A stretch of DNA of 64,000 bases from Lutispora saccharofermentans (GCF_024363565.1 NZ_JAJEKE010000021.1:1-64000), one strand, 5' to 3'; numbered from the stretch's first letter, positions 6,288-40,964 are shown. Notes: a model not told the origin generated them from the sequence alone. Numbers and translations: made by a program.

Positions 6288-6509
6288 AAATAGGTAAAAC
6301 TGGTGACAGGGAAAATGATAAATACTTAGTTGAGAGAGCCTGCGTCTGGTGCAAGCAGGTCTGAGATTTTATCTTATCCACCCTGGAGGGATTGCGAGGA
6401 GCAAAACGGGGGCAGCCGTTACACTGCATAGAGAGGATCACTAGATCAATTTGGGTGGTAACGCGGAAGCAAGTCTTTCGTCCCTTTATGGGATGAAGGG
6501 CTTTTTTTA
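6288..6509 (+). promoter_or_regulatory. Serine T-box riboswitch (first complete module)
   Basis: A tRNA-sensing leader with a stem I region (AGAGAG near 6335 and a purine-rich distal loop), a specifier loop reading TTA-TCC-ACC, the T-box sequence aatttgggtggtaacgcgg at 6448-6466, and a terminator (aagtctttcgtccc pairing with gggatgaagggctt, then seven T, ending near 6508). The specifier UCC followed by A means it should sense uncharged tRNA-Ser, which fits the downstream serine biosynthesis genes. The same positions read UCC-A in the serS leader and CCC-A in the proS leader, which supports the assignment. Confidence 0.85.
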
Positions 6510-20658: not shown

Positions 20659-20689
20659 AAAAAAAACTATATAGTAAAATGCATTGATG

Positions 20690-20902
20690 GGAAAAAGTAG
20701 ATGAAACTGCTATAAAGAGAGTCGGCGGATGGTGAAAGCCGGTGTGCAAGACATTGAATTCCATCCCGGAGCAGCCTGTGATGAGCAGGAGCGGTGAAGC
20801 CGTTATATCTTTGAGAGAGCAGCATATGCTGGTGCTGTTAACTAGGGTGGCAACGCGGATTACCTTTCGTCCCTTTTATGGGGACGGAAGGTTTATTTTT
20901 TT
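20690..20902 (+). promoter_or_regulatory. Serine T-box riboswitch of serS
   Basis: Stem I includes AGAGAG near 20717, the specifier loop reads GAAT-TCC-ATC (Ser codon UCC followed by A), the T-box is aactagggtggcaacgcgg (20840-20858), and the terminator pairs acctttcgtccc with gggacggaaggt and ends in a T-run. The sequence upstream to the proS stop contains only the repeat and the promoter. Confidence 0.88.
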
Positions 20903-28622: not shown

Positions 28623-28712
28623 GGAGAGATGTCCGAGCGGTTGATGGAGCTGGTCTTGAAAACCAGAGATGTTTCACGACATCCGTGGGTTCGAATCCCA
28701 CTCTCTCCTCCA
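28623..28712 (+). tRNA. tRNA-Ser (anticodon TGA)
   Basis: It folds as a class II tRNA with acceptor ggagaga/tctctcc, anticodon arm ctggt-cttgaaa-accag (TGA at 34-36), a long variable arm and T-arm gtggg-ttcgaat-cccac. CCA is encoded. The discriminator base is T, whereas bacterial tRNA-Ser usually has G73. Confidence 0.95.
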
Positions 28713-28769
28713 TAAGAGAATCATAACTTAGTTCTTTGAATAAGAGTATGTATAAGAGGAAAAGTAGAT

Positions 28770-28879
28770 GGGAATTCGAACGGGAGGAACAAGAAGATGC
28801 GCCCTTTGGAAGCATTTTCCCTCCCAGGCGTGATAGTGAGCGAAAGCGAACGGAGCGAATCCCACTCTCTCCTCCATAA
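28770..28879 (+). repeat. tRNA-linked structured repeat, copy 1, plus duplicated tRNA 3' end
   Basis: A 94-base unit (28770-28863) starts gggaattcgaacgggagg and ends gcgaatccc. Internal pairing is extensive: GGGAGG with CCTCCC and the gatgc/gcatt arms. It runs directly into a copy of the upstream tRNA's 3' end: 28856-28879 equals 28692-28715 (T-arm to CCATAA). The remaining bases 28713-28769 contain nothing recognisable. Confidence 0.8.
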
Positions 28880-28898
28880 AGAACTATAGCTTAGACCT

Positions 28899-28990
28899 GG
28901 AGAAGTACTCAAGTAGGTCGAAGAGGCGCCCCTGCTAAGGGCGTAGGTCGGGAAACTGGCGCGAGGGTTCGAATCCCTCCTTCTCCGCCA
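28899..28990 (+). tRNA. tRNA-Ser (anticodon GCT)
   Basis: Acceptor ggagaag/cttctcc, anticodon arm cgccc-ctgctaa-gggcg (GCT at 34-36), long variable arm, T-arm gaggg-ttcgaat-ccctc, discriminator G and encoded CCA. It lies in the same transcription unit as the TGA tRNA. Confidence 0.96.
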
Positions 28991-29000
28991 TCTGAAAACG

Positions 29001-29024
29001 AATCACTCACAAGAGTGATTTTTT
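29001..29024 (+). terminator. Terminator after tRNA-Ser(GCT)
   Basis: aatcactca/caagagtgatt hairpin followed by T6. A second copy is at 29162-29186. Confidence 0.85.
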
Positions 29025-29045
29025 AGTATAAACGAATGAGCAACG

Positions 29046-29186
29046 GGGATTCGAACGGGAGGAACAAGAAAATGCGCCCTTTGGAAGCATTTTCCCTCCC
29101 AGGCGTGAAAGCGAGCCAAAGCGAGCGGAGCGAATCCCTCCTTCTCCGCCATCTGAAAACGAATCACTCATAAGAGTGATTTTTTT
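29046..29186 (+). repeat. tRNA-linked structured repeat, copy 2, plus duplicated tRNA 3' end and terminator
   Basis: The unit at 29046-29138 (gggattcgaacgggagg to cgaatccc) is nearly identical to 28770-28863. Its ends GGGATTCG and CGAATCCC are a perfect inverted repeat; inside, GGGAGG/CCTCCC and AAAATGC/GCATTTT form a second stem. It is followed by 29131-29185, which repeats 28970-29024 (tRNA-Ser(GCT) T-arm, CCA and terminator) with one mismatch. Confidence 0.82.
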
Positions 29187-29217
29187 GCTATATAAATCAC
29201 GATAAAGAATCTATATC

Positions 29218-29460: not shown

Positions 29461-29538
29461 ATTACCTGTAACAAATTATTACAGTTTAATGTTGCAATTT
29501 AAAGGGAAATATATAATAATTTATTTTGGGTGATATTA

Positions 29539-30468
29539 ATGATAAGTAATAGTTTAAGAAATGAATATACGAAAATTGCCTACTACTATTATAAAGCTGG
29601 AATGACTCAGGAAGAGATAGCAAAAAAGATGTCGATGTCCCGTCAGAAGGTTAACAGGGTTTTAAAAAAATGTCTTGAAGATGGTATAGTGAAAATTACT
29701 ATTGAAGGCTACCCATGCGAGGGCATTGAAATGGAGGTCAAGCTGGAATCCCTGCTGGGCCTTAATAGGGTGATTATCGTAGCTGCACCAGAAAAGGAAG
29801 TATTGGGAAATGCATCAGCAGCATATCTTGAAGGCATTATTAAGAACAATGATATTATAGGTTTTTCAGGAGGAAAGGCTTTATCATATATTGTTGATAG
29901 GCTCAAGCCTGTAGAGGCAAAGAATCTTTCTGTTACGCAATTGGTAGGAATTCTTAATACAGATGGCGAATATGGAAGTTCAGACTACATTGTCAGGAAG
30001 GCATCAGACAAATTGCATGCAAAGCCTCACTTTATTTATGCTCCAATGATGCTGAACAGTACATTGCTTCGTGACTCTCTTTTAAAAGAAGAATTTTATA
30101 CTGATGTTTTTGATGCCATGAAGGCCTGTACCATAGCTATGGTTCTTATTGGCGACATGAACCATATATCATCGCTCGTTGAAACAAAATTTATTTCAGC
30201 AGAAGAATTAGAGGATTTGAAAAATAAGTGTACTGTTGGTGAAGTATGTACTCATTTTTATGATATAGATGGCAATCTCATTACCAACACTATAAATGAC
30301 AGGGTGCTGTCAATTGATATTGATAGTTATAAAAATATTCCTTTGCGTGTTGGAATAGGAAAAGGAAAAGAATCTGTACAGTCTATAATAGGTGCTGCAA
30401 AAAGCAGACTGATTAATGTACTGATAACTGATTTTGAAACTGCTGATGTATTATCAAAAACAATTTGA
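29539..30468 (+). CDS. SorC/DeoR-type transcriptional regulator
   Basis: The protein has 309 residues from ATG 29539. The N-terminal helix-turn-helix (AGMTQEEIAKKMSMSRQKVNRVLKKC, about residues 20-45) precedes a SorC sugar-binding domain with GFSGGKALSYIVDRL and the ligand-pocket region near the C terminus (LPLRVGIGKG-like, here IPLRVGIGKG). Proteins of this family sense phosphorylated sugars or related catabolites and control the operon beside them. Here that is the aldolase-Grd operon starting at 30755, behind repeats at 30679-30710. It has its own terminator at 30504. Confidence 0.88.
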   Translation: MISNSLRNEYTKIAYYYYKAGMTQEEIAKKMSMSRQKVNRVLKKCLEDGIVKITIEGYPCEGIEMEVKLESLLGLNRVIIVAAPEKEVLGNASAAYLEGIIKNNDIIGFSGGKALSYIVDRLKPVEAKNLSVTQLVGILNTDGEYGSSDYIVRKASDKLHAKPHFIYAPMMLNSTLLRDSLLKEEFYTDVFDAMKACTIAMVLIGDMNHISSLVETKFISAEELEDLKNKCTVGEVCTHFYDIDGNLITNTINDRVLSIDIDSYKNIPLRVGIGKGKESVQSIIGAAKSRLINVLITDFETADVLSKTI

Positions 30469-30503
30469 CTTTTAATTATAGACCATATAAAGAAGTTTAT
30501 GTT

Positions 30504-30545
30504 AAGAAAAACTCTTTCACTATTAAGTGAAGGAGTTTTTCTTAT
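30504..30545 (+). terminator. Terminator of the SorC regulator gene
   Basis: aagaaaaactc-tttcac pairs with gtgaa-ggagtttttctt around a short loop and ends in TTTTTCTTATTTT. Confidence 0.85.
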
Positions 30546-30639
30546 TTTGTAATGAACTATTCGATACCTCTTCAATATTTTATTCAAATAACCTATTAAC
30601 AATATTGAAAATAGCGATAATTGTATAGTTAAATTTCAC

Positions 30640-30710
30640 TTTACATACAAAGTTCGATATGATATCATAATTAAGACGTTACAAATGTAAATTGACTGAG
30701 CAAATGTAAC
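30640..30710 (+). promoter_or_regulatory. Promoter and operator region of the aldolase-Grd operon
   Basis: TTTACA 30640-30645 and TATCAT 30663-30668 (17-base spacer) form a possible promoter. Downstream lies TTACAAATGTAA (30679-30690), a palindrome, and caaatgtaa occurs twice (30682 and 30701) with 19-base spacing. These fit a binding site for the adjacent SorC regulator. The rest of the gap holds a -10-like TATACT at 30725-30730. Confidence 0.5.
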
Positions 30711-30754
30711 ACAAAATGACGCATTATACTATTATAGAAAAGAGGTGAAGTATA

Positions 30755-31555
30755 ATGGCAAGTAAAACACACCGCTTGAACCATATTTTCAGAGAGGATA
30801 AAAAGACATTCATCATGGCAATGGACCATGGAAGCGTTTTTAATGTTCTTCCTGCTATGAAGCGTATAGGTGATATTGTAAGCGATGTGGCTAGAGCAGG
30901 AGCAGATGCATTTTTGGCTAATGTTGGATTGGTAGAAAAATTTGCAGATGACTTTCATGGGAAGGGAATCATTTTAAGGCTGGATGGCGCATTTACATTC
31001 CTGGGCTCAAAAGATAAAACTGTTGAAACTGTAGCTAACGTTGAAGATGCCATAGGTCTTGGAGCTGATTCTGTAATTGGCATGGGCTTTCCTGGATCTA
31101 AATGGGAGGATAAGGTTCTTAAAAACCTGGCAGCTAATATCAGCGAATGCAATAAGTGGGGTATTCCAATGACTGCGGAAATGCTTCCAAGAGGTTTTGA
31201 AGGTGGAGAGGATTCCCGTACTGCTCAAAATATTACCTTTGCATGCCGACTTGGCGCCGAGATGGGTGCTGATATTATAAAGACAGAATATACAGGAGAT
31301 ACTGAAAGCTTCAGGGAATTATGCGAAAGCGTTTTTGTACCTGTTGTAATTTTAGGAGGAAGTAAGAAGGTGTCTGAAGAGCAGCTGCTTACAGAAATAA
31401 AGGAAGCTCTTGAAGCAGGTGCATCTGGAATTGCCATGGGAAGGAACATATGGGGACATGAGGAGCCAGCTAGATATGCAGGTGCTATAGCTAAGCTAAT
31501 ACATGAAGATTGCAGCGTTGAAGCAGCACTTAAGGAATTAAGCAAGAAATTCTAG
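30755..31555 (+). CDS. Class I aldolase, DhnA/LsrF/FbaB family
   Basis: The protein has 266 residues of the DeoC/LacD/DhnA TIM-barrel family (COG1830). The Schiff-base lysine is in ADIIKTEYTGD (about K176), with the AMDHG start of the barrel near residue 22 and the C-terminal phosphate-binding GASGIAMGRNIWGH. LsrF-type enzymes cleave or thiolyse phosphorylated ketoses; FbaB-type act on fructose-1,6-bisphosphate. It is the first gene of the operon, under SorC control, so it probably cleaves a phosphorylated or hydroxylated carbon-chain intermediate into two short units. It starts after AGAGGTGAAG and ends 11 bases before the next gene. Confidence 0.88.
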   Translation: MASKTHRLNHIFREDKKTFIMAMDHGSVFNVLPAMKRIGDIVSDVARAGADAFLANVGLVEKFADDFHGKGIILRLDGAFTFLGSKDKTVETVANVEDAIGLGADSVIGMGFPGSKWEDKVLKNLAANISECNKWGIPMTAEMLPRGFEGGEDSRTAQNITFACRLGAEMGADIIKTEYTGDTESFRELCESVFVPVVILGGSKKVSEEQLLTEIKEALEAGASGIAMGRNIWGHEEPARYAGAIAKLIHEDCSVEAALKELSKKF

Positions 31556-31566
31556 GAGGAAGCATT

Positions 31567-32601
31567 ATGGGTGAAAAGTATAAAGTAGCCATATTAACTG
31601 GTGTAGGACAGGCAGAAATCACTGAAAAGGAATTGAGACAGCCTCAAGGACATCAGGTGCTTGTAAAGGTTGACAGCTGTGCAATATGCACCCTTGAACA
31701 GAGAATGTACAATGGAGTTATGAAAAGATACCCATTTGCAGGAGGCCATGAAGCATCAGGAACGGTTGTTGCAGTAGGTGAGTTTGTAAAAAGTTTGAGA
31801 AAGGGTGATAAGGTAGCGGCTAGGCTATTGACTAGCTGCGGTGAATGCTACTTCTGCAGAAGCGGTCATGAAAACCAGTGTGTTATATCCTTCATGGCTA
31901 ATGTACATGAAGGAGTTGGAGGACCTGGAGGATTTGCAGAATACATGATGCTGGATGCAAAGAAGCTTTACAAGGTAGCTGATGACCTGGATTTAACTCA
32001 TGCAGCTCTGGCAGAGCCTCTCGCATGCTGTGTGCACAGCATAAATAATGCAAATATTGGGCTGGGTGAGGACGTTGTCGTGATAGGAGTAGGAATAATG
32101 GGAGCCTTCCATATTAAACTTGCTAAGCTGAGAGGAGCTAGAGTTATTGCATGTGAGGTAGAGGAGGAACGCCTAGAGGTTGCAAAAAAAATGGGTGCTG
32201 ACCTCCTGATTAATTCAAAGAAGGTAAATGCTGTCGATAAGGTAAAGGAACTGACCGAAGAAAGAGGAGCAGATGTGGTATTCTGCACTGCAGCTCTTAC
32301 AAAGCTTGCAGAGGAAAGTATACAGATTGTAAGTAAGGCTGGGCGTGTTATAATGTACTCCTCTTTCCATCCAGACAATCCAATTGACCTTAGCGTAAAC
32401 AAGGTACACTCATCGGAAATGAATATAACAGGCGCTGTAAATGCTAACACCAGAGATTTCCTTGCAGCAACAAGGCTTCTTTCAAGCCATATGGTAGATC
32501 CGTCAATACTTATATCAGAGACAGTTCCATTAGAAAAGCTTGATTATGCTTTTAAGCGTGCAATTGACCCCAAAACATATCGTATAGTAATTAAAGCATA
32601 A
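31567..32601 (+). CDS. Zinc-dependent medium-chain alcohol dehydrogenase
   Basis: The protein has 344 residues, with ATG 31567 behind TAGGAGGAAGC. The catalytic-zinc region has Cys in SCAICTLE and GGHEASG; the structural-zinc loop is CGECYFCRSGHENQC. The NAD(P)-binding motif is VIGVGIMGAFH (about residue 180), with an acidic CEVEEERLE after the second strand that favours NAD. It belongs to the sorbitol/threonine dehydrogenase-like branch (Tdh/GutB group). It should interconvert a secondary or primary alcohol and a carbonyl in the island's pathway. Confidence 0.9.
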   Translation: MGEKYKVAILTGVGQAEITEKELRQPQGHQVLVKVDSCAICTLEQRMYNGVMKRYPFAGGHEASGTVVAVGEFVKSLRKGDKVAARLLTSCGECYFCRSGHENQCVISFMANVHEGVGGPGGFAEYMMLDAKKLYKVADDLDLTHAALAEPLACCVHSINNANIGLGEDVVVIGVGIMGAFHIKLAKLRGARVIACEVEEERLEVAKKMGADLLINSKKVNAVDKVKELTEERGADVVFCTAALTKLAEESIQIVSKAGRVIMYSSFHPDNPIDLSVNKVHSSEMNITGAVNANTRDFLAATRLLSSHMVDPSILISETVPLEKLDYAFKRAIDPKTYRIVIKA

Positions 32602-32740
32602 AGGCTTACACCATATAATCCCAAAATGATGATTGCCCCATAGTATGGGTTGCAATATATACACTAATTCTTACAAATTAGCTTCATAGGGAATCAGACA
32701 TAAAGCTGTGAAATCATAAATTAAGAAAAGGAGCAATATT

Positions 32741-34084
32741 ATGTCAAACAAAGAAAACGGTAAGCTTGGTTTACTAGACAGTACAACCATTCTCATAGGT
32801 GGAATGATTGGAAGTGCCATCTTTTCACTTTCAGGAATGACGATTTTATGTGCTGGTCCTGCCTGTATCATCTCATGGATCATTGCAGCTATCATACTGT
32901 ATGCTTATGGTCTTCAGACAGCAGAACTGGCTACAGTTTATCCGTCCTCAGGAGGAGTTTTCGTATTCCCTGCTGAGGCGCTTGGAAAGACTAAAAAACA
33001 GAAGAAGCTTATAGGATGGATTACAGCATGGGCTTATCTTTTTACTTGCATTGGAGGAGCGGCATTCTCAGCAACCTATGTAGGAACCTACCTTGGAGTT
33101 GGCTTCCCAAGCCTAGCCAATGCACAGATTGTTATTGCCATTGGAACAATTGTAGTCTGTGGCATACTGAACCTGTTTAACATATCTGTTACAGGAAAGG
33201 CTAACACTGCATTAACGATACTGCTTGCAGCTACAATGGTTGTATTTGTTGTAGTTGCTTTGTTCAGTGGACAGTGGGATGCAGCGATGCTTACACCTTT
33301 CTTTACTCAGGGGTCTGCTGGATCGTGGGGCTTCATGAGTGCTATTCCTATAGCAATGGTTGCATATGGATCCATAGTAGCTGTTGCGTTCATGGTTGGA
33401 GAAATCAAAGATCCTAACAAGACAGTACCAAAGGCAATGAGCATTGCAATGCTCATTGTTGCAACCCTTTATATTCTTGTTATGATAGCTGTATTAGGCC
33501 TTGTATCATCACAGTACCTTCAGGAGAATAGTGGAATGGCTTATATACCCTTGTATGCTGCAGCCTTCACAAAGCTGGCATCAATACCATGGCTTATAAA
33601 GCTCATATCTATTTCAGCAGTGTTGGCGCTTATAACCACAATACTTGTTCTTATAGCCCTTGCAGGACGTACCCTTCAGGCTGCAGCAGCTGACGGAGTT
33701 CTTCCGATGTCCTTTGCAAAGAATAATGAGAAAACAAAGGTGCCAACGGTATCACTTGAAGTCGTAATAGTAGTTACCGCCATTCTTACAGTATTCCCAA
33801 GCTTTACTAGCATGATTGTAAACCTTGGCGCACTTTGTAGTGTGCTGGTAGTTGCAGTAATATGCATTTCAGTAATTGCAGCTCGTAAGCGGCATCCATA
33901 TGTTGAAGGAAACTTTAGGGCACCTGGAGGAAATGCTATCCCTGTAATAACAATCGTTGCACTGGTTGCATGCTATGTACCTGACATTATCCGTGGAGGA
34001 TGGCAGATTTGGGCATATACAGCAATATATTTAGTAATTGGTTTGATTATATACTTTATTGGAGCAGGAAAAGCTTCTGACTAA
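32741..34084 (+). CDS. APC-superfamily amino acid/amine permease
   Basis: The protein has 447 residues and 12 predicted membrane helices. The APC signature is near the N terminus (GLLDSTTILIGGMIGSAIF with the GGxIGxxIF substrate-binding motif), and PSSGGVFVFPAEALG and VAFMVGEIKDPNKTVPKAM follow. It is probably a proton- or exchange-driven importer of an amino acid or amine, and it is likely the entry point for the substrate of this island. ATG 32741 follows AAAAGGAGC. A stable hairpin without a T-run follows. Confidence 0.9.
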   Translation: MSNKENGKLGLLDSTTILIGGMIGSAIFSLSGMTILCAGPACIISWIIAAIILYAYGLQTAELATVYPSSGGVFVFPAEALGKTKKQKKLIGWITAWAYLFTCIGGAAFSATYVGTYLGVGFPSLANAQIVIAIGTIVVCGILNLFNISVTGKANTALTILLAATMVVFVVVALFSGQWDAAMLTPFFTQGSAGSWGFMSAIPIAMVAYGSIVAVAFMVGEIKDPNKTVPKAMSIAMLIVATLYILVMIAVLGLVSSQYLQENSGMAYIPLYAAAFTKLASIPWLIKLISISAVLALITTILVLIALAGRTLQAAAADGVLPMSFAKNNEKTKVPTVSLEVVIVVTAILTVFPSFTSMIVNLGALCSVLVVAVICISVIAARKRHPYVEGNFRAPGGNAIPVITIVALVACYVPDIIRGGWQIWAYTAIYLVIGLIIYFIGAGKASD

Positions 34085-34117
34085 TTGAGAATTGTTATAC
34101 ATGTATATTATTACCTG

Positions 34118-34152
34118 GTCATTCTGCCATTTAATTAACATGGCAGAATGAC
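34118..34152 (+). other. Intra-operon hairpin without U-tract
   Basis: A perfect 13-bp stem (gtcattctgccat / atggcagaatgac) with a 9-base AT-rich loop lies between the permease and flavin genes. It lacks a T-run and may be an mRNA processing or stability element. Confidence 0.6.
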
Positions 34153-34206
34153 AATATTGAAAAGAGGTAGTTAGCACTGAAGCATATTTATGGAAATCAT
34201 TATGCA

Positions 34207-35067
34207 ATGTCCAATACCTGCATAGCCTTCGGCGTATTTGATGGAGTTCATGAGGGGCACAAGGCTGTAATAAGTAAACTGATGGAAATGTCAGTTAAGG
34301 GATATACTCCTGTAGTTGTAAGCTTTGAATACGACACTGAATTGCTGCAAGATAAAAAAGTACTTTCAACTGAAATGGAAAAAGAGCATTTGATAGGCCG
34401 GCTAGGACCGGAGTTAATGATTTCATATAAAATAGATAAGCATAATAAGGATAGTGACATAAAAAGCTTCATCAGGGATGTGCTGGTTGAAAGCCTTGGC
34501 GCGAAGGTTATTGTGGCTGGAAAAAATGATTGCAACATAATGGCATTGCGTGAATGTGCCAAAAGTCTGAGATATTGCCTTGAAGAATGCGACACGGTTA
34601 CTTCGGATAGCGGTCCTATTACGTCAGAGCGCATAGCAGCTGAGATTGAAAACAATAATTTGGAAAAGGTAAATAAGCTGTTGGGTCATCCATACATCTT
34701 TATAGGAAAAGTAATGCATGGTAAGGCATTTGGAAGAACTGTTGGCATGCCGACTGCCAACCTTGAATTTGGAGAAAGCAAGCTTTTGCCGGCTTATGGA
34801 GTATATGCAACGCTTTCTGAAATAGATGGCAAAAGTGTAAAAGGACTGACCAACATAGGCAAAAGGCCTTCGGTTGATAATTACGATTATGTGACTATTG
34901 AAACCTTTCTCCTGGATTTTTCAGGTGACCTGTATGATAAAATTATAGAGCTTCAAGTACATGCATTCATCAGGAGTGTAAAAAAATTCAACGGACTTGA
35001 TGAGGTAAAAAGCCAGGTGAACAAGGATATACAGTCCATTAGGGAATATCTTGATAAAATTTCTTAA
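34207..35067 (+). CDS. ribF: RibF-like FAD synthetase / flavokinase homologue
   Basis: The protein has 286 residues from ATG 34207. It has the nucleotidyltransferase motif FGVFDGVHEGHKAV of FMN adenylyltransferases at the N terminus, and the flavokinase block GRTVGMPTANLEF, LLPAYGVYAT, GLTNIGKRPSVDN and ETFLLDF at about residues 180-245. The expected products are FMN and FAD. A ribosome site (AGAGGT 34163-34168) sits too far from ATG 34207 but 8 bases before CTG 34177, in frame, so translation may start there and add ten residues. Its place inside a catabolic operon suggests a flavin-demanding step or a local function. Confidence 0.85.
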   Translation: MSNTCIAFGVFDGVHEGHKAVISKLMEMSVKGYTPVVVSFEYDTELLQDKKVLSTEMEKEHLIGRLGPELMISYKIDKHNKDSDIKSFIRDVLVESLGAKVIVAGKNDCNIMALRECAKSLRYCLEECDTVTSDSGPITSERIAAEIENNNLEKVNKLLGHPYIFIGKVMHGKAFGRTVGMPTANLEFGESKLLPAYGVYATLSEIDGKSVKGLTNIGKRPSVDNYDYVTIETFLLDFSGDLYDKIIELQVHAFIRSVKKFNGLDEVKSQVNKDIQSIREYLDKIS

Positions 35068-35102
35068 ATAATTATAAATGTATAAATTTAGGAGGTAATC
35101 AT

Positions 35103-36596
35103 ATGAACCCACTAGACTATGTAAAAAAGGAACCTTACAAATTGTATATTAATGGAGAATTTGTACCGTCTGAATCTGGCAAGACCATGGATATAATCAA
35201 TCCGGTTAACAATGAGCCATTTGCAAAGGCTTATATAGGTGGAAAGGCAGATGTTGAAAAGGCTATACTTGCTGCAAGAAGGGCCTATGATGAGGGAGTA
35301 TGGGGAAGGATGACTGCCAAGGAAAGATCCAAGTTGATTATGAAAGCAGGAAGAATCCTTGAGAAAAGAAAGGAAGAGTTTGCAGTTCTTGAAACTCTTG
35401 AAGCGGGAAAGCTTTTCGGCAGCTGCTATTACTTTGAAGGGGATATGGCTGTTGATGCATTTGAGTATTGGGCTGGCGTAGCAAGAACTGTTGAAGGAAA
35501 GATGGTTCCATGTAACGAACAAGGAGCATGGAACTGCGTATTATGGCAGCCATTAGGCGTTGTAGGCGAGATCATTCCATGGAACGGACCATTCCTAATG
35601 GGATGCCAGAAAATAAATGGCATACTTGCAGCAGGTAATACGGTTATCATAAAGCCGGCTACATGGGCTTGCACAACCATGTCACTTTTAGCTGAGGTAT
35701 ATCATGAAGCAGGCTTCCCTGAGGGTGTTGTAAACGTTGTAATGGGTCCTGGAGGGGAGTGCGGAAGTGCATTGGCAGAAAGCCCACTGGTAGATATGGT
35801 ATCAATGACAGGCGGTACTGAAACAGGACGCAAGATCATAGAGAAATCTGCGGATACAATAAAGGATATAGCCCTTGAGCTGGGCGGAAAGAGCCCTAAC
35901 ATATTCTTTGAGGACGTAGACATAGATAGGGCAGTTGAATGGGCAAGATATGGCTTCACTCTACATGCTGGGCAGGTATGTGTATCGGGCTCGAGACTGA
36001 TAGTTCATAAGAGCATATATGAGGAATTTATCACGAAGCTGAAGGCAGAGGTTGAAAAATTCGTTCCTGGTGATGGCTTTGATCCGAAGACTACTCTTAA
36101 TACACTTATTTCCAGGCAACACTGCAATAGCGTATGGAATTACATTGAAAAAGGCAAAGCTGAGGGAGCAAGGCTTGTCACAGGAGGAGTGCCATATACA
36201 GATCCAAAGCTTGAGAAAGGAAATTTCGTTCCTCCAACAATATTTGCTGACGTTACTCCAGATATGACCATTTTTCAGGAGGAGATATTCGGACCAGTTG
36301 TTACAGTTACATCCTTTGAAACTGAAGAGGAAGCAATAGCATTGGCTAATAGCACTATTTACGGCCTTGCGGGTGGTATAAATACAAACGATGTAAAGAG
36401 AGCCTTGAGAGCTGTTAATAAGATCCATGGAGGACAGATATATGTCAACTCCTATTTCAGCAAGGCGATGGTTGAGTCACCAGGAACAGGTTGGAAGCAG
36501 AGTGGACTTGGCGTAGCAGGAATACACAAATATATGATATCCAAGACTGTATTCTTTGATACAGTTGAAGGAAGTCAACCACCAATAAGACTTTAG
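35103..36596 (+). CDS. NAD(P)-dependent aldehyde dehydrogenase
   Basis: The protein has 497 residues with the full ALDH fold: the N-terminal YINGEFVPS, the cofactor site PWNGPFLMG and IIKPATW, the general-base Glu in LELGGKSPN (about E259), the nucleophile Cys in HAGQVCVSGSRL (C293) and the C-terminal EEIFGPVVTV. It belongs to the betaine-aldehyde/phenylacetaldehyde-like group (ALDH family 1/2). ATG 35103 follows AGGAGGTAAT. With the two alcohol dehydrogenases it could oxidise an alcohol through an aldehyde to an acid for the Grd-type reductase, as in choline to betaine. That route is inference. Confidence 0.92.
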   Translation: MNPLDYVKKEPYKLYINGEFVPSESGKTMDIINPVNNEPFAKAYIGGKADVEKAILAARRAYDEGVWGRMTAKERSKLIMKAGRILEKRKEEFAVLETLEAGKLFGSCYYFEGDMAVDAFEYWAGVARTVEGKMVPCNEQGAWNCVLWQPLGVVGEIIPWNGPFLMGCQKINGILAAGNTVIIKPATWACTTMSLLAEVYHEAGFPEGVVNVVMGPGGECGSALAESPLVDMVSMTGGTETGRKIIEKSADTIKDIALELGGKSPNIFFEDVDIDRAVEWARYGFTLHAGQVCVSGSRLIVHKSIYEEFITKLKAEVEKFVPGDGFDPKTTLNTLISRQHCNSVWNYIEKGKAEGARLVTGGVPYTDPKLEKGNFVPPTIFADVTPDMTIFQEEIFGPVVTVTSFETEEEAIALANSTIYGLAGGINTNDVKRALRAVNKIHGGQIYVNSYFSKAMVESPGTGWKQSGLGVAGIHKYMISKTVFFDTVEGSQPPIRL

Positions 36597-36611
36597 AGAG
36601 GAGAGATATAC

Positions 36612-37946
36612 TTGGCGGCATTAAAAGCAATACACTATATAAACCAGTTCTATGCAGGCATTGGCGGAGAGACCATGGCAGATATAGGCCTTCAGGTTTT
36701 TACTGGTACAAAAGGGCCCGGTATGGGACTGGAAAAGCTGTGGAAGGGAGAAATGGAGGTTATAAAGACCATCGCCTGTGGCGATAACTTCATTAATAAG
36801 GACGAAAACTTCGAGAGCGTGGCACCAGAGATTGCAAAAATAATAAAGCAGGAAAAACCAGATGTATTCATAGCTGGACCGGCATTTAATGCTGGACGTT
36901 ATGGAGTAGCATGTGCTAAGATGGCAGATTACGTAAGAAGGGAACTTGGGGTTCCAAGCGTCACAGGCATGTGGCATGAAAATCCTGCTATAAGCATGTA
37001 TGTAAAGGATAATTATATAATATCCACAACTGAGACAGCTACAGGAATGACTAAGTCACTGCCTGCAATGGCAAGTCTTGCTTTAAAACTGGCTAAGAAG
37101 GAAGAAATAGGTCCGGCGCGTTTGGAAGGTTATATTAGGACCGGGCACAGATATAACCAGTACAATAAAAAAACAGGTGCTGAAAGGGTTGTTGATATAC
37201 TGCTTAAAAAGCTGAACAATGAACCTTATGTGACAGAGGTGCCTCTGAGAGGCTTTGAGGTTGTTCCACCAGCACCTAAGGTAGTAAAACTGAAGAATGC
37301 GACTATTGCCCTGCTTACTACAGGCGGACTTGTTCCAATGGGGAATCCTGATAAAATAAGACAGGCATTTGCTACAAGCTATGGAAGGTATGACATGGGA
37401 GGGAAGGACTCTCTTGACCAGGGAGTATACGAATCCATACATGGAGGCTATGACACTACCTATGCTACCGCCGATCCCCACAGACTGGTTCCCTTGGATG
37501 CAATGAGGGCATTAGAGAAGGAAGGAATAATCGGAGGAACATATAGATACTTCTTTACTACCTGCGGTGTTGGGACAAACATTGAAAGCAGTAAGGAGAT
37601 GGGAAGGAGAATAGCTGACGAGTTGTCAAAGGCTGGAGTCGGCGCAGCTTTAATGACTACCACGTGAGGAACCTGCACACGTTGCGGTGCAACGATTACA
37701 AAGGAATTAGACAGGGTTGGAATACCTACTGCTCATATAACTGGCTTTACATCTATAGCACAAAATGTTGGAGCTAACAGAATAATATTCGGCGGTAACT
37801 TTACATCACCTGCAGGAAATCCAAGCCTTCCTCTTGAACGTGAAAAGGCATACAGAAGAAAGATAGTTGAAAAGGCTCTGGCTGTGATTTCACAGGATGT
37901 TCATGAACCGACCATATTCACTGTTGATGAGAGCAAGGAGGGATAA
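36612..37946 (+). CDS. Selenocysteine-containing Grd-type protein B subunit (GrdB/GrdF/GrdH family)
   Basis: The full product is 444 residues, with an in-frame UGA at 37665-37667 read as selenocysteine (codon 352). The frame continues to TAA at 37944. Sec sits in the family motif U-G-T-C-T-R-C, and the following C-terminal 92 residues (GANRIIFGGNFTSPAGNPSLPLEREKAYR, in blocks) match the conserved tail of glycine, sarcosine and betaine reductase B proteins. The N terminus reads HYINQFYAGIGGE, as in GrdB. A hairpin follows the UGA. The start is TTG 36612 behind AGAGGAGAG. Protein B activates the amine substrate and passes a carboxymethyl-selenoether to protein A. Conventional callers will truncate it at 37667. 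The substrate is unassigned; an unprocessed partner subunit favours a sarcosine/betaine-like type. Confidence 0.93.
37665..37694 (+). promoter_or_regulatory. Sec UGA codon with candidate bacterial SECIS hairpin
   Basis: UGA at 37665-37667 is followed, 12 bases on, by the stem CGTTGC (37680-37685) and GCAACG (37689-37694) with a GGU loop. Distance, apical stem and G/U-containing loop fit a bacterial SECIS element recognised by SelB. Confidence 0.75.
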
Positions 37947-37948
37947 AG

Positions 37949-39259
37949 GTGAAGCTGACAAGACAGTATTTTGATATAAAGGACGTAGTATTTGGTAAAA
38001 GATGCTCTCTTTCAGAGGGAGTACTCACTATAAACAAGGAAGAGCTTAAAAGCCAGGTTAGTGATCTGTTCAAGGCCATTGAAGATATAGACTTTGAAAT
38101 AGTAAAGCCCGGAGAGAATGCGCGTATCATACACCTGCTTGATACCATTCAGCCTATGTTTAAGATAGCAGGAAATGGAATGCAGTATTCCGGATTTTTT
38201 GGAACACCTTTTACAGTAGGAGATGGGACAACCAATCTTCTGAAGGGCTTTACAGTTATGGAAAGCGCTGCGCTTCCATGGGATGAATCCAGTGCCAGCA
38301 GCGGACTGCTTTATCCGAGGGATGCAATAATGGACATGACTGGCCCCATTGCTGGATTTACCCCATTCAGCCAGACAATAAACCTTGTGATATTATATAA
38401 GCTGGCCGAAGGCAAATCCTCTATTGAATATGATGAGAACATACGTATGATAGGAGTCAAGGTTTCCACATACCTTGCCCAGCTTACAAAGGACGTAGAG
38501 CCGGATGACAAAGAGCTTTTCAGTATTGACGATATCAATCCTGAACTGCCTAATGTGGTGCTTGTTTGGCAATGCCAGAACCAGGGCCCGTATTCAAACA
38601 CATATCTGTATGGAGAAAGCATAGACAACCTTGTTCCAACTTTGCTTAATCCTAATGAGATGCTGGACGGATGCGTGGTAAGCGGCAATTATGTATGGCC
38701 TGCATTCAAGGTACCAACTTACCTTCATGTTAACCATCCAATCCTTCTTGAACTGTATAAAAACCATGGAAAGACAATTAATTTCAGGGGAGTTATATTC
38801 TGCAGGAGCCACCAGCCTACCAACTGGCATAAGCAGAGATGTGCAAGTTTTAATGTGAAGCTGGCACAGTATCTTGGTGCCAACGGCCTTGTTATGGCAT
38901 GGGAAGGCGGCGGAAATGCTTGCGTTGATGGAATGCTTACCATACAGACAGCTGAGAAGAACGGTATAAAGGCATCCACAATAACCTTTGAATTCGGAGG
39001 CGAGGATGGTACGGAAGGTATACTTCTTGTTGATGATGTGCCAGAAGCAGATGCTATCATTAGCGGAGGCTCCATAGAAAAGCACTACCTGCTGCCCGAT
39101 GTAGATAGGGTTGTTGGAGGAGATTCCCTTAGGCTTAACAAGGAATCGGGAGGCTTCTTCCCACCATCTGATAAGGCTATAGAGTTTGATACCACTACCC
39201 AGCTGTATCTTGGCGGAAACCAAGCAGGAGCAGGCAAAAATTTTGCTGAATCCTATTAA
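37949..39259 (+). CDS. Grd-type protein B partner subunit (GrdE/GrdG/GrdI family)
   Basis: The protein has 436 residues from GTG 37949, two bases after the selenoprotein stop and behind AAGGAGGG. Family blocks are MDMTGPIAGFTPFSQT, QNQGPYSNTYLYG, PNEMLDGCVVSGN, VNHPILLELYKNHGKTINFRGVIF and YLGANGLVMAWEGGGN. In GrdE, as I recall, autocleavage occurs at an SGN-Cys bond to make the pyruvoyl group; here position 248 is Tyr (SGNYVW). It should therefore stay uncleaved, like reported betaine- and sarcosine-type subunits. With the selenoprotein it would form the substrate-specific protein B. A terminator follows at 39298. Confidence 0.88.
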   Translation: MKLTRQYFDIKDVVFGKRCSLSEGVLTINKEELKSQVSDLFKAIEDIDFEIVKPGENARIIHLLDTIQPMFKIAGNGMQYSGFFGTPFTVGDGTTNLLKGFTVMESAALPWDESSASSGLLYPRDAIMDMTGPIAGFTPFSQTINLVILYKLAEGKSSIEYDENIRMIGVKVSTYLAQLTKDVEPDDKELFSIDDINPELPNVVLVWQCQNQGPYSNTYLYGESIDNLVPTLLNPNEMLDGCVVSGNYVWPAFKVPTYLHVNHPILLELYKNHGKTINFRGVIFCRSHQPTNWHKQRCASFNVKLAQYLGANGLVMAWEGGGNACVDGMLTIQTAEKNGIKASTITFEFGGEDGTEGILLVDDVPEADAIISGGSIEKHYLLPDVDRVVGGDSLRLNKESGGFFPPSDKAIEFDTTTQLYLGGNQAGAGKNFAESY

Positions 39260-39297
39260 TGTAATAGAATGTGCATAGTATTCTTGCACTGAAAGAG

Positions 39298-39356
39298 TAT
39301 ACACCGGCAGCCTTGTTGGTTTTTCAGCTCGCAGGATTGTCGGTGTATATTTTTTT
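39298..39356 (+). terminator. Terminator after the Grd-type B subunit genes
   Basis: tatacaccggca pairs with tgtcggtgtata (one G-U pair) around a 28-base loop, followed by TTTTTTT. It separates the B-subunit genes from the short grdA-like gene. Confidence 0.8.
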
Positions 39357-39431
39357 CACAGTCATTTTAAAATTACCTATGGATAGTAGTAAGTATATGG
39401 ATAAAATATCTGGTAAGTAGGAGGTATAGCA

Positions 39432-39713
39432 ATGATATTAAAAGGAAGAAAGGTTATTGCCATTGGCGATAGGGATGGAGTACCAGGACTAGATATTAAA
39501 GCATGTGCAGGAGACCCTACATTTGCAGGTCCTCTGGCAGGTGTGGAGCTTGGCTTAAGAGTTTACCACATTGTAGAGCCTGAGATGAAGAAAGAATTCG
39601 ATTCAGCTGTATATGATGAGCAGTGCGGTATGATGGAAATGGTTCTTGATGTTGACGAGATTATAAAGGAAGTCAACACAATCAGAGCGCAGCATACAAA
39701 GTTTGATGACTAA
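39432..39713 (+). CDS. GrdA derivative lacking the selenocysteine segment
   Basis: The protein has 93 residues, with ATG 39432 behind TAGGAGGTATAG. It opens with [12 protein letters not shown], the N-terminal motif of glycine reductase selenoprotein A. It then jumps directly to [26 protein letters not shown] and [13 protein letters not shown], the C-terminal half of GrdA. About 65 residues are missing compared with the usual ~158, including the CxxU redox motif and the region after it. The frame is intact, the ribosome site is strong and the codons look normal. It cannot carry the selenoether intermediate as GrdA does. It may be a docking or regulatory remnant; a full grdA would have to be elsewhere. 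Confidence 0.85.
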
Positions 39714-39770
39714 TAAGAATATAAGGAAGAATTAGGTGATATATTTAATTTAGTAGGGGAGGATTTTAAA

Positions 39771-40964
39771 ATGGTAAAAGCTTATACACAGCTTTTAATG
39801 AAAAAATATATAACCGGGCGAGGAGCCATTTCTTCTCTTGGGAATATGGGTAGAAAGCGTGCAGCCATAGTGCTTGACAGGGGAGTAGTTTCACCTGAAA
39901 ATCTGGATAAAATTACTGGCTATCTTAAGGATGGAGGAACGGAATATCAGGTGGTAGCTGATATCCGCACAGAACCTTACTTTAAGGATATTTTAAAAGC
40001 GAGACAGACAGTAAATGAATTTCAACCTGACATGATAGTAGCTATAGGTGGCGGATCTGTTATGGATACGGCTAAGGCACTTTGGCTTTTTTATGAGCAT
40101 CCGGAGATGCCCTTCGAGGATGCATTTAAGCCGTTTCAGCTTCCGCCAACCACAGGAAAGGCAATCATAGTTGCTGTTCCTACCACCAGCGGTACAGGCT
40201 CAGAGACAACTTCCTGCGCTGTATTTACTAACCAGGATACAAATCAGAAGTCACTGATGCTGGGAAACAACCTTATTCCTGAGTATGCCATTCTGGATGC
40301 TGATTTTACTGATACTCTTCCTGACCATATAGCAGCACAGACAGGCATGGATGCGCTTACTCATGCAATGGAGGCATCTGTAAGTGCAAATACGAGCCCT
40401 ATGGTAGTCACATTAGCCATTTCAGCAGCACTGGACATGTTTGAATATCTTCCTATTTCTGCAGGAACCGGAGCAGAGGGAACAAGTAAATACGAGGCAA
40501 GGGAGAGATGCCACAATGCTGCATCACTTGCAGGAGTGGCCATTACCAATTCCTTCTGTGGCCTTGCACATGCATGCGACCAGCCAGGTTCGTTCTTTAA
40601 GCTTCCTCATGGACTGGTTTGTGGAATGTTCCTTCCATATACTACTGCTCTGGCTTCTCCTCATCCTACATATGCAGCTGTTGCAAGAAGGCTGGGTTGC
40701 AATGGAAAAACCGAAGCCGAGCTATGCAGCCAGCTGGTAGATCATTTATGGAGCTTTACTGAAAAAATGGGGCTTTGCCACAGCTTTAAGGAACTGAATA
40801 TAGATGAAACTGCATACATGGAACAGCTTCCGCTGTTTGTAAAAGCTGCATGTGAATCTATGTCATCCAAACTTTCACCTCATCCTTTGGATGAAGTTTC
40901 AGCTACTAGGCTTTTCAAAGACATATATTATGGCATTAAGCCAGAAGTAGAAAAAAATAGATAG
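39771..40964 (+). CDS. Iron-containing alcohol dehydrogenase
   Basis: The protein has 397 residues of the Fe-ADH family. Visible are the NAD-binding GGGSVMDTAKAL, the motif TTSGTGSETT, and the metal ligands Asp and His in GMDALTHAMEA, His in GLAHACDQPG and His in KLPHGLVCG. It should reduce an aldehyde to an alcohol or the reverse. It follows the grdA-like gene by about 57 bases behind GGGGAGGATT and is probably co-transcribed with it. It could recycle NADH or handle the aldehyde that also serves the aldehyde dehydrogenase. Confidence 0.93.
   Translation: MVKAYTQLLMKKYITGRGAISSLGNMGRKRAAIVLDRGVVSPENLDKITGYLKDGGTEYQVVADIRTEPYFKDILKARQTVNEFQPDMIVAIGGGSVMDTAKALWLFYEHPEMPFEDAFKPFQLPPTTGKAIIVAVPTTSGTGSETTSCAVFTNQDTNQKSLMLGNNLIPEYAILDADFTDTLPDHIAAQTGMDALTHAMEASVSANTSPMVVTLAISAALDMFEYLPISAGTGAEGTSKYEARERCHNAASLAGVAITNSFCGLAHACDQPGSFFKLPHGLVCGMFLPYTTALASPHPTYAAVARRLGCNGKTEAELCSQLVDHLWSFTEKMGLCHSFKELNIDETAYMEQLPLFVKAACESMSSKLSPHPLDEVSATRLFKDIYYGIKPEVEKNR

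Follow-up and report, generated by a model that had tools for sequence, protein, structure and literature searches.

A fin-type operon of Lutispora saccharofermentans and a proposed Grd-dependent route for breakdown of the riboflavin side chain

Identity of the operon as a fin neighbourhood

Clostridium scindens converts riboflavin to lumichrome without oxygen, and in doing so induces a gene neighbourhood designated finA–K (PMC12934955, Feb 2026). This comprises, among others, a RibF (finB), a class I aldolase (finC), an alcohol dehydrogenase (ADH; finD), an aldehyde dehydrogenase (ALDH; finG) and a glycine-reductase-like (Grd) pair (finHI); the mechanism was left unexplained, and no chemistry was proposed for the Grd genes. 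In Faecalicatena fissicatena the neighbourhood lacks the Grd pair, and the product is hydroxyethylflavin (PMC12934955). RcaE of Microbacterium and Devosia carries out the same riboflavin-to-lumichrome conversion, as an O2-dependent monooxygenase that releases ribose (PMC12934955). Here we describe an operon in a stretch of 64,000 nucleotides from Lutispora saccharofermentans (GCF_024363565.1, NZ_JAJEKE010000021.1:1-64000; hereafter the window). No monooxygenase is encoded in the operon, which, judged by orthology gene by gene to the C. scindens neighbourhood, is almost certainly a fin operon. The initial annotation of the window, made from the sequence alone, had taken the operon for a candidate new catabolic system, a view that the match to the riboflavin-induced fin neighbourhood (PMC12934955) overturns. 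The ten genes that it listed were all recovered on the plus strand, with family assignments that agree with profile matches. The features of the operon are as follows.

29530..30468, +, SorC/LsrR/DeoR-family regulator (PF04198, 198.6 bits; alternative ATG start at 29539)
30503..30544, +, intrinsic terminator 3' of the regulator gene (19-pair stem followed by a U-run; -24.6 kcal/mol, z -8.5)
30640..30668, +, predicted sigma-70 promoter of the catabolic genes (TTTACA-17-TATCAT with TG; consensus match only)
30678..30710, +, predicted SorC operator, inverted repeat GTTACAAATG-N13-CAAATGTAAC, just 3' of the -10 box
30755..31555, +, class I aldolase of the DhnA/archaeal fructose-bisphosphate aldolase type, FinC orthologue (PF01791)
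31567..32601, +, Zn-dependent medium-chain ADH, FinD orthologue (PF08240/PF00107; 63% identity to the L099 copy)
32741..34084, +, APC-superfamily permease, FinA/FinF type (PF13520; 50-70% identity to the APC permeases in other fin loci)
34207..35067, +, RibF paralogue, FinB orthologue (PF01687, 130.6 bits; PF06574, 65.8 bits)
35103..36596, +, ALDH resembling betaine aldehyde dehydrogenase (BADH), FinG orthologue (TIGR01804 BADH, 490 bits; 68% identity to the L099 copy)
36612..37946, +, Grd-type protein B beta subunit, a selenoprotein, FinH orthologue (TIGR01918, 509 bits; selenocysteine (Sec) codon TGA at 37665-37667)
37668..37705, +, selenocysteine insertion sequence (SECIS) element for the FinH Sec codon (Rfam RF01990 SECIS_4, 40.3 bits; gathering threshold 38)
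37949..39259, +, Grd-type protein B alpha subunit, FinI orthologue (PF09338, 436 bits; 77% identity to the L099 copy)
39285..39370, +, terminator-like hairpin with a U-run between finI and the grdA remnant (-35.7 kcal/mol, z -7.2)
39432..39713, +, grdA remnant of 93 amino acids, its middle with the Sec motif lost (PF04723 in two stretches, best 25-85)
39771..40964, +, Fe-containing ADH (PF00465/PF25137; 47% identical homologue in the fin cluster of genome G524)

A genome has been scored as fin-positive when orthologues of finB, finC and finG lie in one neighbourhood (PMC12934955). All three lie close together in the window, as does the finHI pair of the C. scindens-like variant, with GrdB and GrdE 69 and 77% identical, respectively, to those of locus L099. 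Identities to the genes of genome G1088 (a single contig of 3,658,040 bp), which is probably C. scindens ATCC 35704, range from 43% (SorC) to 77% (GrdE). The gene order in G1088, namely APC, RibF, (HAD, opposite strand), aldolase, Zn-ADH, SorC, APC, ALDH, GrdB and GrdE, fits the published lettering finA to finI exactly (PMC12934955); the letters A and F for the APC genes and E for SorC are our own mapping. The SorC counterpart in L099 sits between finD and finF. Shared with the C. scindens neighbourhood are thus the RibF paralogue, class I aldolase, Zn-ADH, SorC, APC, BADH-like ALDH, Sec-containing GrdB and GrdE, and both organisms encode GrdA elsewhere in the genome. The window operon differs in having one APC gene rather than two, an additional Fe-ADH and grdA remnant, and another gene order, and its host lies outside the presumed Lachnospiraceae and carries a ribD gene as well as RibU.

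The initial annotation had proposed a search for the same gene order in other Clostridia. The order SorC-aldolase-ZnADH-APC-RibF-ALDH-GrdB-GrdE recurred in four Clostridia loci (L012-L015) at 55-82% identity, where the SorC gene is divergent, so the grouping is not fortuitous. The window SorC is 36-59% identical to the SorC proteins of the other fin loci. The whole fin set, Fe-ADH included, was also found regrouped in a genome of another class (G524, loci L058 and L081), and five fin-type aldolases were found in family f26 (348 genomes, >300 genera), presumed from its size to be Lachnospiraceae. The aldolase scan of genome contigs gave five loci; the presumed-Lachnospiraceae loci came from the family search. 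Fin-type GrdE was found, at the threshold used, in none of the five other genomes of the window's genus (0/5), and the distribution is therefore patchy. Locus L103 (G1061) holds APC, RibF, aldolase and Zn-ADH with neither ALDH nor Grd genes within reach, and would be a minimal form of the pathway. What is new here is the fin set outside Lachnospiraceae, a conserved putative operator before the aldolase, parallel clusters combining a phosphotransferase system (PTS), an aldolase and Grd genes, a FinB predicted to be a kinase only, and a Grd clade outside the glycine, sarcosine and betaine types that lacks the pyruvoyl cysteine.

A proposed route from riboflavin to lumichrome

From the gene set we propose, at a probability of roughly 65%, that the operon would convert the riboflavin side chain to dihydroxyacetone phosphate (DHAP) and acetyl phosphate, releasing lumichrome, with GrdA and GrdCD supplied in trans. 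FinB, acting as a kinase, would convert riboflavin to FMN, and the Zn-ADH FinD would oxidize the ribityl 4'-OH to a ketone. FinC would then break the C2'-C3' bond of 4'-dehydro-FMN in a retro-aldol reaction to give DHAP and 10-formylmethylflavin; placing the ketone at C4', with DHAP as the ketone fragment, follows from aldol chemistry with a 5'-phosphate. The ALDH FinG would oxidize 10-formylmethylflavin to 10-carboxymethylflavin, an N-substituted glycine, whose carboxymethyl carbon would be attacked by the Sec of the GrdB-type subunit of FinHI, so that N10 leaves as lumichrome. The carboxymethyl group would pass to a full-length GrdA encoded elsewhere, and GrdCD would release acetyl phosphate. 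The carbon balance of this route is 17 = 12 + 3 + 2. Where the ALDH/Grd part is missing, the pathway would stop at formylmethylflavin, which would be reduced to hydroxyethylflavin. The route thus predicts lumichrome with Grd and formylmethylflavin or hydroxyethylflavin without, and therefore fits the products of C. scindens and F. fissicatena; riboflavin induction and lumichrome formation in C. scindens were taken from the literature, whereas the genes present and their orthology, the Sec, the motifs retained or missing, the conserved repeat and the trans GrdA/GrdCD come from the present analysis. This anatomy gives each main fin enzyme a role and predicts named intermediates. Oxidation to an acid or aldolase cleavage, with Grd-type C-N reduction, had been put forward at the outset as the catabolic logic, and this part of the reading is supported. 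The substrate had been read as an alcohol or aminopolyol; a polyol-bearing compound stands, choline or a free aminopolyol does not, as the RibF homologue in the operon points to the ribityl side chain of riboflavin or FMN.

An alignment of RibF sequences bears on the first step. All fin RibF copies have lost seven residues of the FMN-adenylyltransferase loop GxxFxFGxxxxG, together with the SSxxIR motif; the loop reads AGYNFSFGQKKYGN in the housekeeping RibF (G000:C1:17808, in the genome of the window) and AGKNDC-------NIMAL in the window copy, and neither loss is shared by this housekeeping copy. The riboflavin kinase motifs, GRTVGMPTAN and the VTIE region, are kept in fin RibF. The window copy accordingly lacks the features of a bifunctional RibF while carrying those of the kinase, and FinB is predicted to make FMN, not FAD. 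Loss of the adenylyltransferase loop with retention of the kinase motifs is in keeping with FMN as the working substrate.

Fin aldolases form one clade in the tree (support 99/98), and their nearest non-fin relatives occur mostly in sorbose-type PTS operons with an adjoining Zn-ADH, which argues that such aldolase and Zn-ADH pairs act on phosphorylated sugars. Sorbose/mannose-type PTS operons share the adjoining homologous DhnA-type aldolase and Zn-ADH, some with SorC; phosphorylation falls to the PTS there and to RibF here, and Grd genes are mostly absent there. In comparison with TptFBPA (1ojx), the Schiff-base Lys176 and the GG(S/G)K and GRN loops, which bind phosphate in this aldolase family and are typical of aldolases that release DHAP, are kept. 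The best NCBIfam match of the ALDH was TIGR01804 BADH, at a score (490 bits) below the cut-off; the substrate of BADH is likewise an N-CH2-CHO compound. A possible role for the Fe-ADH is to reduce formylmethylflavin to hydroxyethylflavin, or to dispose of NADH.

With regard to control, the inverted repeat GTTACAAATG-N13-CAAATGTAAC at 30678-30710, between the promoter-like site and the aldolase, is the sole match in the window and had no match in 100 shuffles. In L012, L013, L014, L015, L016, L081, L101 and L102 the same repeat stands ahead of the aldolase or of the operon's first gene; L099 and L100 have degenerate forms, and it was not found in the related clusters that lack an aldolase. It is read as a predicted SorC operator, at which SorC would repress until a flavin or phosphorylated intermediate appears, and its sharing supports common control with the other fin loci. 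Control by an FMN riboswitch was considered and rejected: an Rfam scan gave none in the window, and the two of the genome precede a RibU-like gene on contig C12 and ribD on C24 (both named from their translations). Riboflavin is probably taken up by the RibU-like protein of C12.

Protein B subunits, trans machinery and related clusters

The Sec-containing GrdB-type subunit of the initial annotation was borne out by a single in-frame TGA in the context TTT-U-GTCTRC (UxxCxxC type), with the SECIS_4 match directly after it. The pair therefore has the features of the Grd protein B superfamily, namely PF07355 and PF09338 subunits, Sec in UxxCxxC and a SECIS, and Sec aligns at the same place in the GrdB of all fin loci. 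FinH scored above the cut-off of TIGR01918 (509 bits), and below those for the glycine, sarcosine and betaine reductases. The scores were 471 bits against 602 for TIGR01917 (glycine), 497.7 and 270.6 bits against 800/780 for NF040794/NF040793 (sarcosine, GrdF/GrdG) and 442 bits against 775 for NF040795 (betaine). No PDB match to solved GrdB/E structures was obtained by sequence. B-subunit phylogeny had been named beforehand as the result that could refute a new system, and the refuting outcome was not obtained. The fin B subunits, together with the fin-like ones, make up a separate group with 100/100 support that includes none of the glycine, sarcosine or betaine reductases; the core fin group, which includes the window pair, has support of 98/96, and a 100/100 branch separates the window subunits from the sarcosine reference L154. 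Grouping every fin B subunit strictly into one clade was disfavoured (p-AU, the p value of the approximately unbiased test, 0.042), with fin-like clusters interleaving.

In an alignment of 51 sequences, FinI has GNY where all glycine GrdE have the GNC processing site, as do the other fin and fin-like alpha subunits (GNL in L102). Through the pyruvoyl group derived from its cysteine, GrdE forms a Schiff base with the amine of the substrate. The cysteine is likewise missing from GrdI and FarE, and their substrates cannot form a Schiff base (PMC10838667); flavin N10 could not form one, because it carries no hydrogen. The fluoroacetate reductase subunits FarB/FarE of Cloacibacillus porcorum MFA1 resemble the fin pair in being a dedicated protein B, without the pyruvoyl cysteine, that feeds a common GrdA/GrdC (PMC10838667). 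They differ in that the window subunit scored 154.7 for FarE against a cut-off of 675, and FarB lacks the CxxC that fin GrdB has. The betaine reductase GrdH/GrdI shares the Sec subunit, the unprocessed alpha subunit, grdACD in trans and, as far as the fin substrate is proposed, an N-CH2-COOH-type substrate without free NH, whereas the fin pair falls in a separate clade and its operon in the window has no BCCT transporter.

In the genome of the window (G000; 37 contigs, 4.3 Mb in all), contig C1 carries a complete trxB-trxA-grdE-grdA(Sec)-grdB-grdC-grdD operon, with a full-length Sec-containing GrdA at G000:C1:453947-454381 (156 amino acids). Contig C29 carries a grdI-grdH pair of the betaine type next to a BCCT transporter, and this pair too lacks grdA, grdC and grdD; the trx, grdC/D and BCCT genes were named from their translations. 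The C1 GrdB, with a score of 755, exceeds the glycine cut-off of 602, and the C29 GrdH, with 833, exceeds the betaine cut-off of 775. Sec-type GrdA was found in 14 of the 15 related genomes searched, the exception (G1113) being a metagenome-assembled genome. Several substrate-specific proteins B are known to feed one common A/C system (PMC10838667), so an operon without grdC/grdD is normal. Absence of these genes from the operon had been correctly noted at the outset; they are present on C1, and the absence loses its value as a distinguishing trait, as proteins A and C act in trans here as they do for the betaine reductase on C29.

The truncated GrdA of the initial annotation proved to be a 93-amino acid reading frame with both GrdA ends present and an internal in-frame loss of the middle; alignment with the C1 GrdA (156 amino acids) shows ...DIKAC joined in frame to AGDPTFAG.... 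The C-F-V-U motif is missing, and with it the Sec in CxxU of a functional GrdA. The remnant is probably vestigial and non-functional, with an assembly error as the alternative. Since it follows grdE, a position taken in genome G597 by a full-length grdA, an intact grdA was probably once part of the cluster. That a GrdA without Sec might be a new, conserved protein was also considered and rejected: it was found only in the window, and the corresponding position behind GrdE in G597 holds the full-length form. Short GCAGG-type repeats occur at matching places in the C1 full-length grdA and are compatible with a deletion between them.

In G597 (loci L061, G597:C8:66001-85000, and L090) one strand carries SorC, a class I aldolase, Zn-ADH, a sorbose-type PTS, full-length GrdA, fin-like GrdE/GrdB, a ThiS/MoaD protein and an aldehyde ferredoxin oxidoreductase (AOR), followed by trxAB and grdDC. 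These loci look as if they encode Grd-dependent breakdown of an N-linked polyol that enters through the PTS, with the AOR replacing the ALDH. Locus L064 (G469:C76:25001-44000) has Zn-ADH and a class II aldolase along with a sorbose-type PTS and EI and HPr-like genes. It also has an XRE-cupin regulator, a flavodoxin-fold protein, a divergent GrdB/E pair whose Sec motif is UATGTRC, and a BADH-like ALDH that shares 68% identity with the window enzyme. Because the same activities recur with different kinases, aldolases and aldehyde oxidizers, these clusters support the order proposed for fin. Loci L059 (G736), L060 (G538) and L062 (G469) combine fin-like GrdBE with an APC permease and a BADH-like ALDH, and two of them, L059 and L062, have an Fe-ADH as well; neither RibF nor the fin aldolase was seen in any of the three, and they may treat N-(2-hydroxyethyl) compounds via N-carboxymethyl acids.

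We lean slightly towards regarding the fin protein B as the first Grd selenoenzyme to act on a vitamin, reductively cutting the N10-C1' bond of 10-carboxymethylflavin, and as part of a wider, unrecognized class of pathways for N-linked polyol chains. The logic of this class would be a kinase or PTS, a dehydrogenase, an aldolase, aldehyde oxidation by ALDH or AOR, and Grd cleavage. This would likely be a new substrate class for Grd selenoenzymes and, if true, vitamin B2 would supply a bacterium with acetyl phosphate as well as an electron sink. Both lumichrome and formylmethylflavin are MR1 ligands, and the former inhibits mucosal-associated invariant T (MAIT) cells (PMC12650265); the fin route would thereby link gut selenium metabolism, vitamin B2 and immunity.

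Alternative explanations and other features

Several points weigh against the proposed route. Its reaction steps and their order, like the repressor role of SorC, are inferred. All fin aldolases have Leu at the position of the TptFBPA catalytic Tyr146, so their acid/base chemistry differs from that of TptFBPA. The APC permease has no assigned role in the route, RibU being encoded elsewhere. The FinHI of G524 fall outside the core fin clade, and L059, L060 and L062, without aldolase or RibF, carry GrdB-type genes closely resembling those of fin, so the Grd clade is not flavin-specific. Lastly, in the dark and under basic conditions, free formylmethylflavin can turn into lumichrome without an enzyme (PMC8991990), so that the enzymes might lead only as far as formylmethylflavin, with spontaneous decay to lumichrome and the ALDH and Grd proteins handling a side product. 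We consider this unlikely: the organism reported without Grd genes builds up hydroxyethylflavin, not lumichrome, and ALDH and GrdBE are kept beside the aldolase genes across classes.

In this organism the operon could instead serve to degrade a different N-linked polyol, such as an N-alkylglucamine or a compound of the Amadori type, as the PTS-linked aldolase-Grd clusters L061 and L064 probably do; this was the initial reading, and it draws on the same unexplained APC permease. A RibF paralogue with riboflavin-kinase motifs in every complete fin locus, and an operator-like repeat and gene set common to the Lachnospiraceae-type loci, make it rather improbable. Some bifunctional FAD synthetases run in reverse, and on this basis flavin overflow or repair was put forward in the discussion of PMC12934955. 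FinB would then work backwards as an FADH2 pyrophosphorylase, lumichrome would arise from metabolic damage, and the Grd pair would be separate. We give this little credence, as the adenylyltransferase loop and SSxxIR, needed in either direction, are missing from all fin RibF, and the aldolase, ADH, ALDH and Grd proteins together are left without a role. A choline pathway, in which Fe-ADH and BADH make betaine for reduction by the Grd pair, was rejected as highly improbable despite the BADH-like ALDH, the weak likeness of the Fe-ADH to GbsB and a GrdE that, like GrdI, lacks the pyruvoyl cysteine, because the genome has a true betaine reductase on C29 (GrdH, 833 bits) beside a BCCT transporter, the fin B subunits form a separate clade, and the aldolase, RibF and SorC are left without a role.

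Insertion of the operon as a genomic island at the two tRNA-Ser genes (TGA and GCT, at about 28623-29190 of the window) was likewise rejected, as no repeat of the tRNA region lies downstream and the GC content is 41.3% against 41.7% in the surroundings. A 108-bp segment is repeated at 91% around these tRNA genes (about 28770-28877 and 29045-29152), and near-identical terminator-like hairpins lie at 29000 and 29161. Elsewhere, locus L011 (G000:C33:92001-110000) holds D-proline-reductase-like genes that match PF09338, one of them with two TAA codons inside the match. Two T-box leaders lie on the plus strand of the window, at 6294-6488 and 20675-20877.

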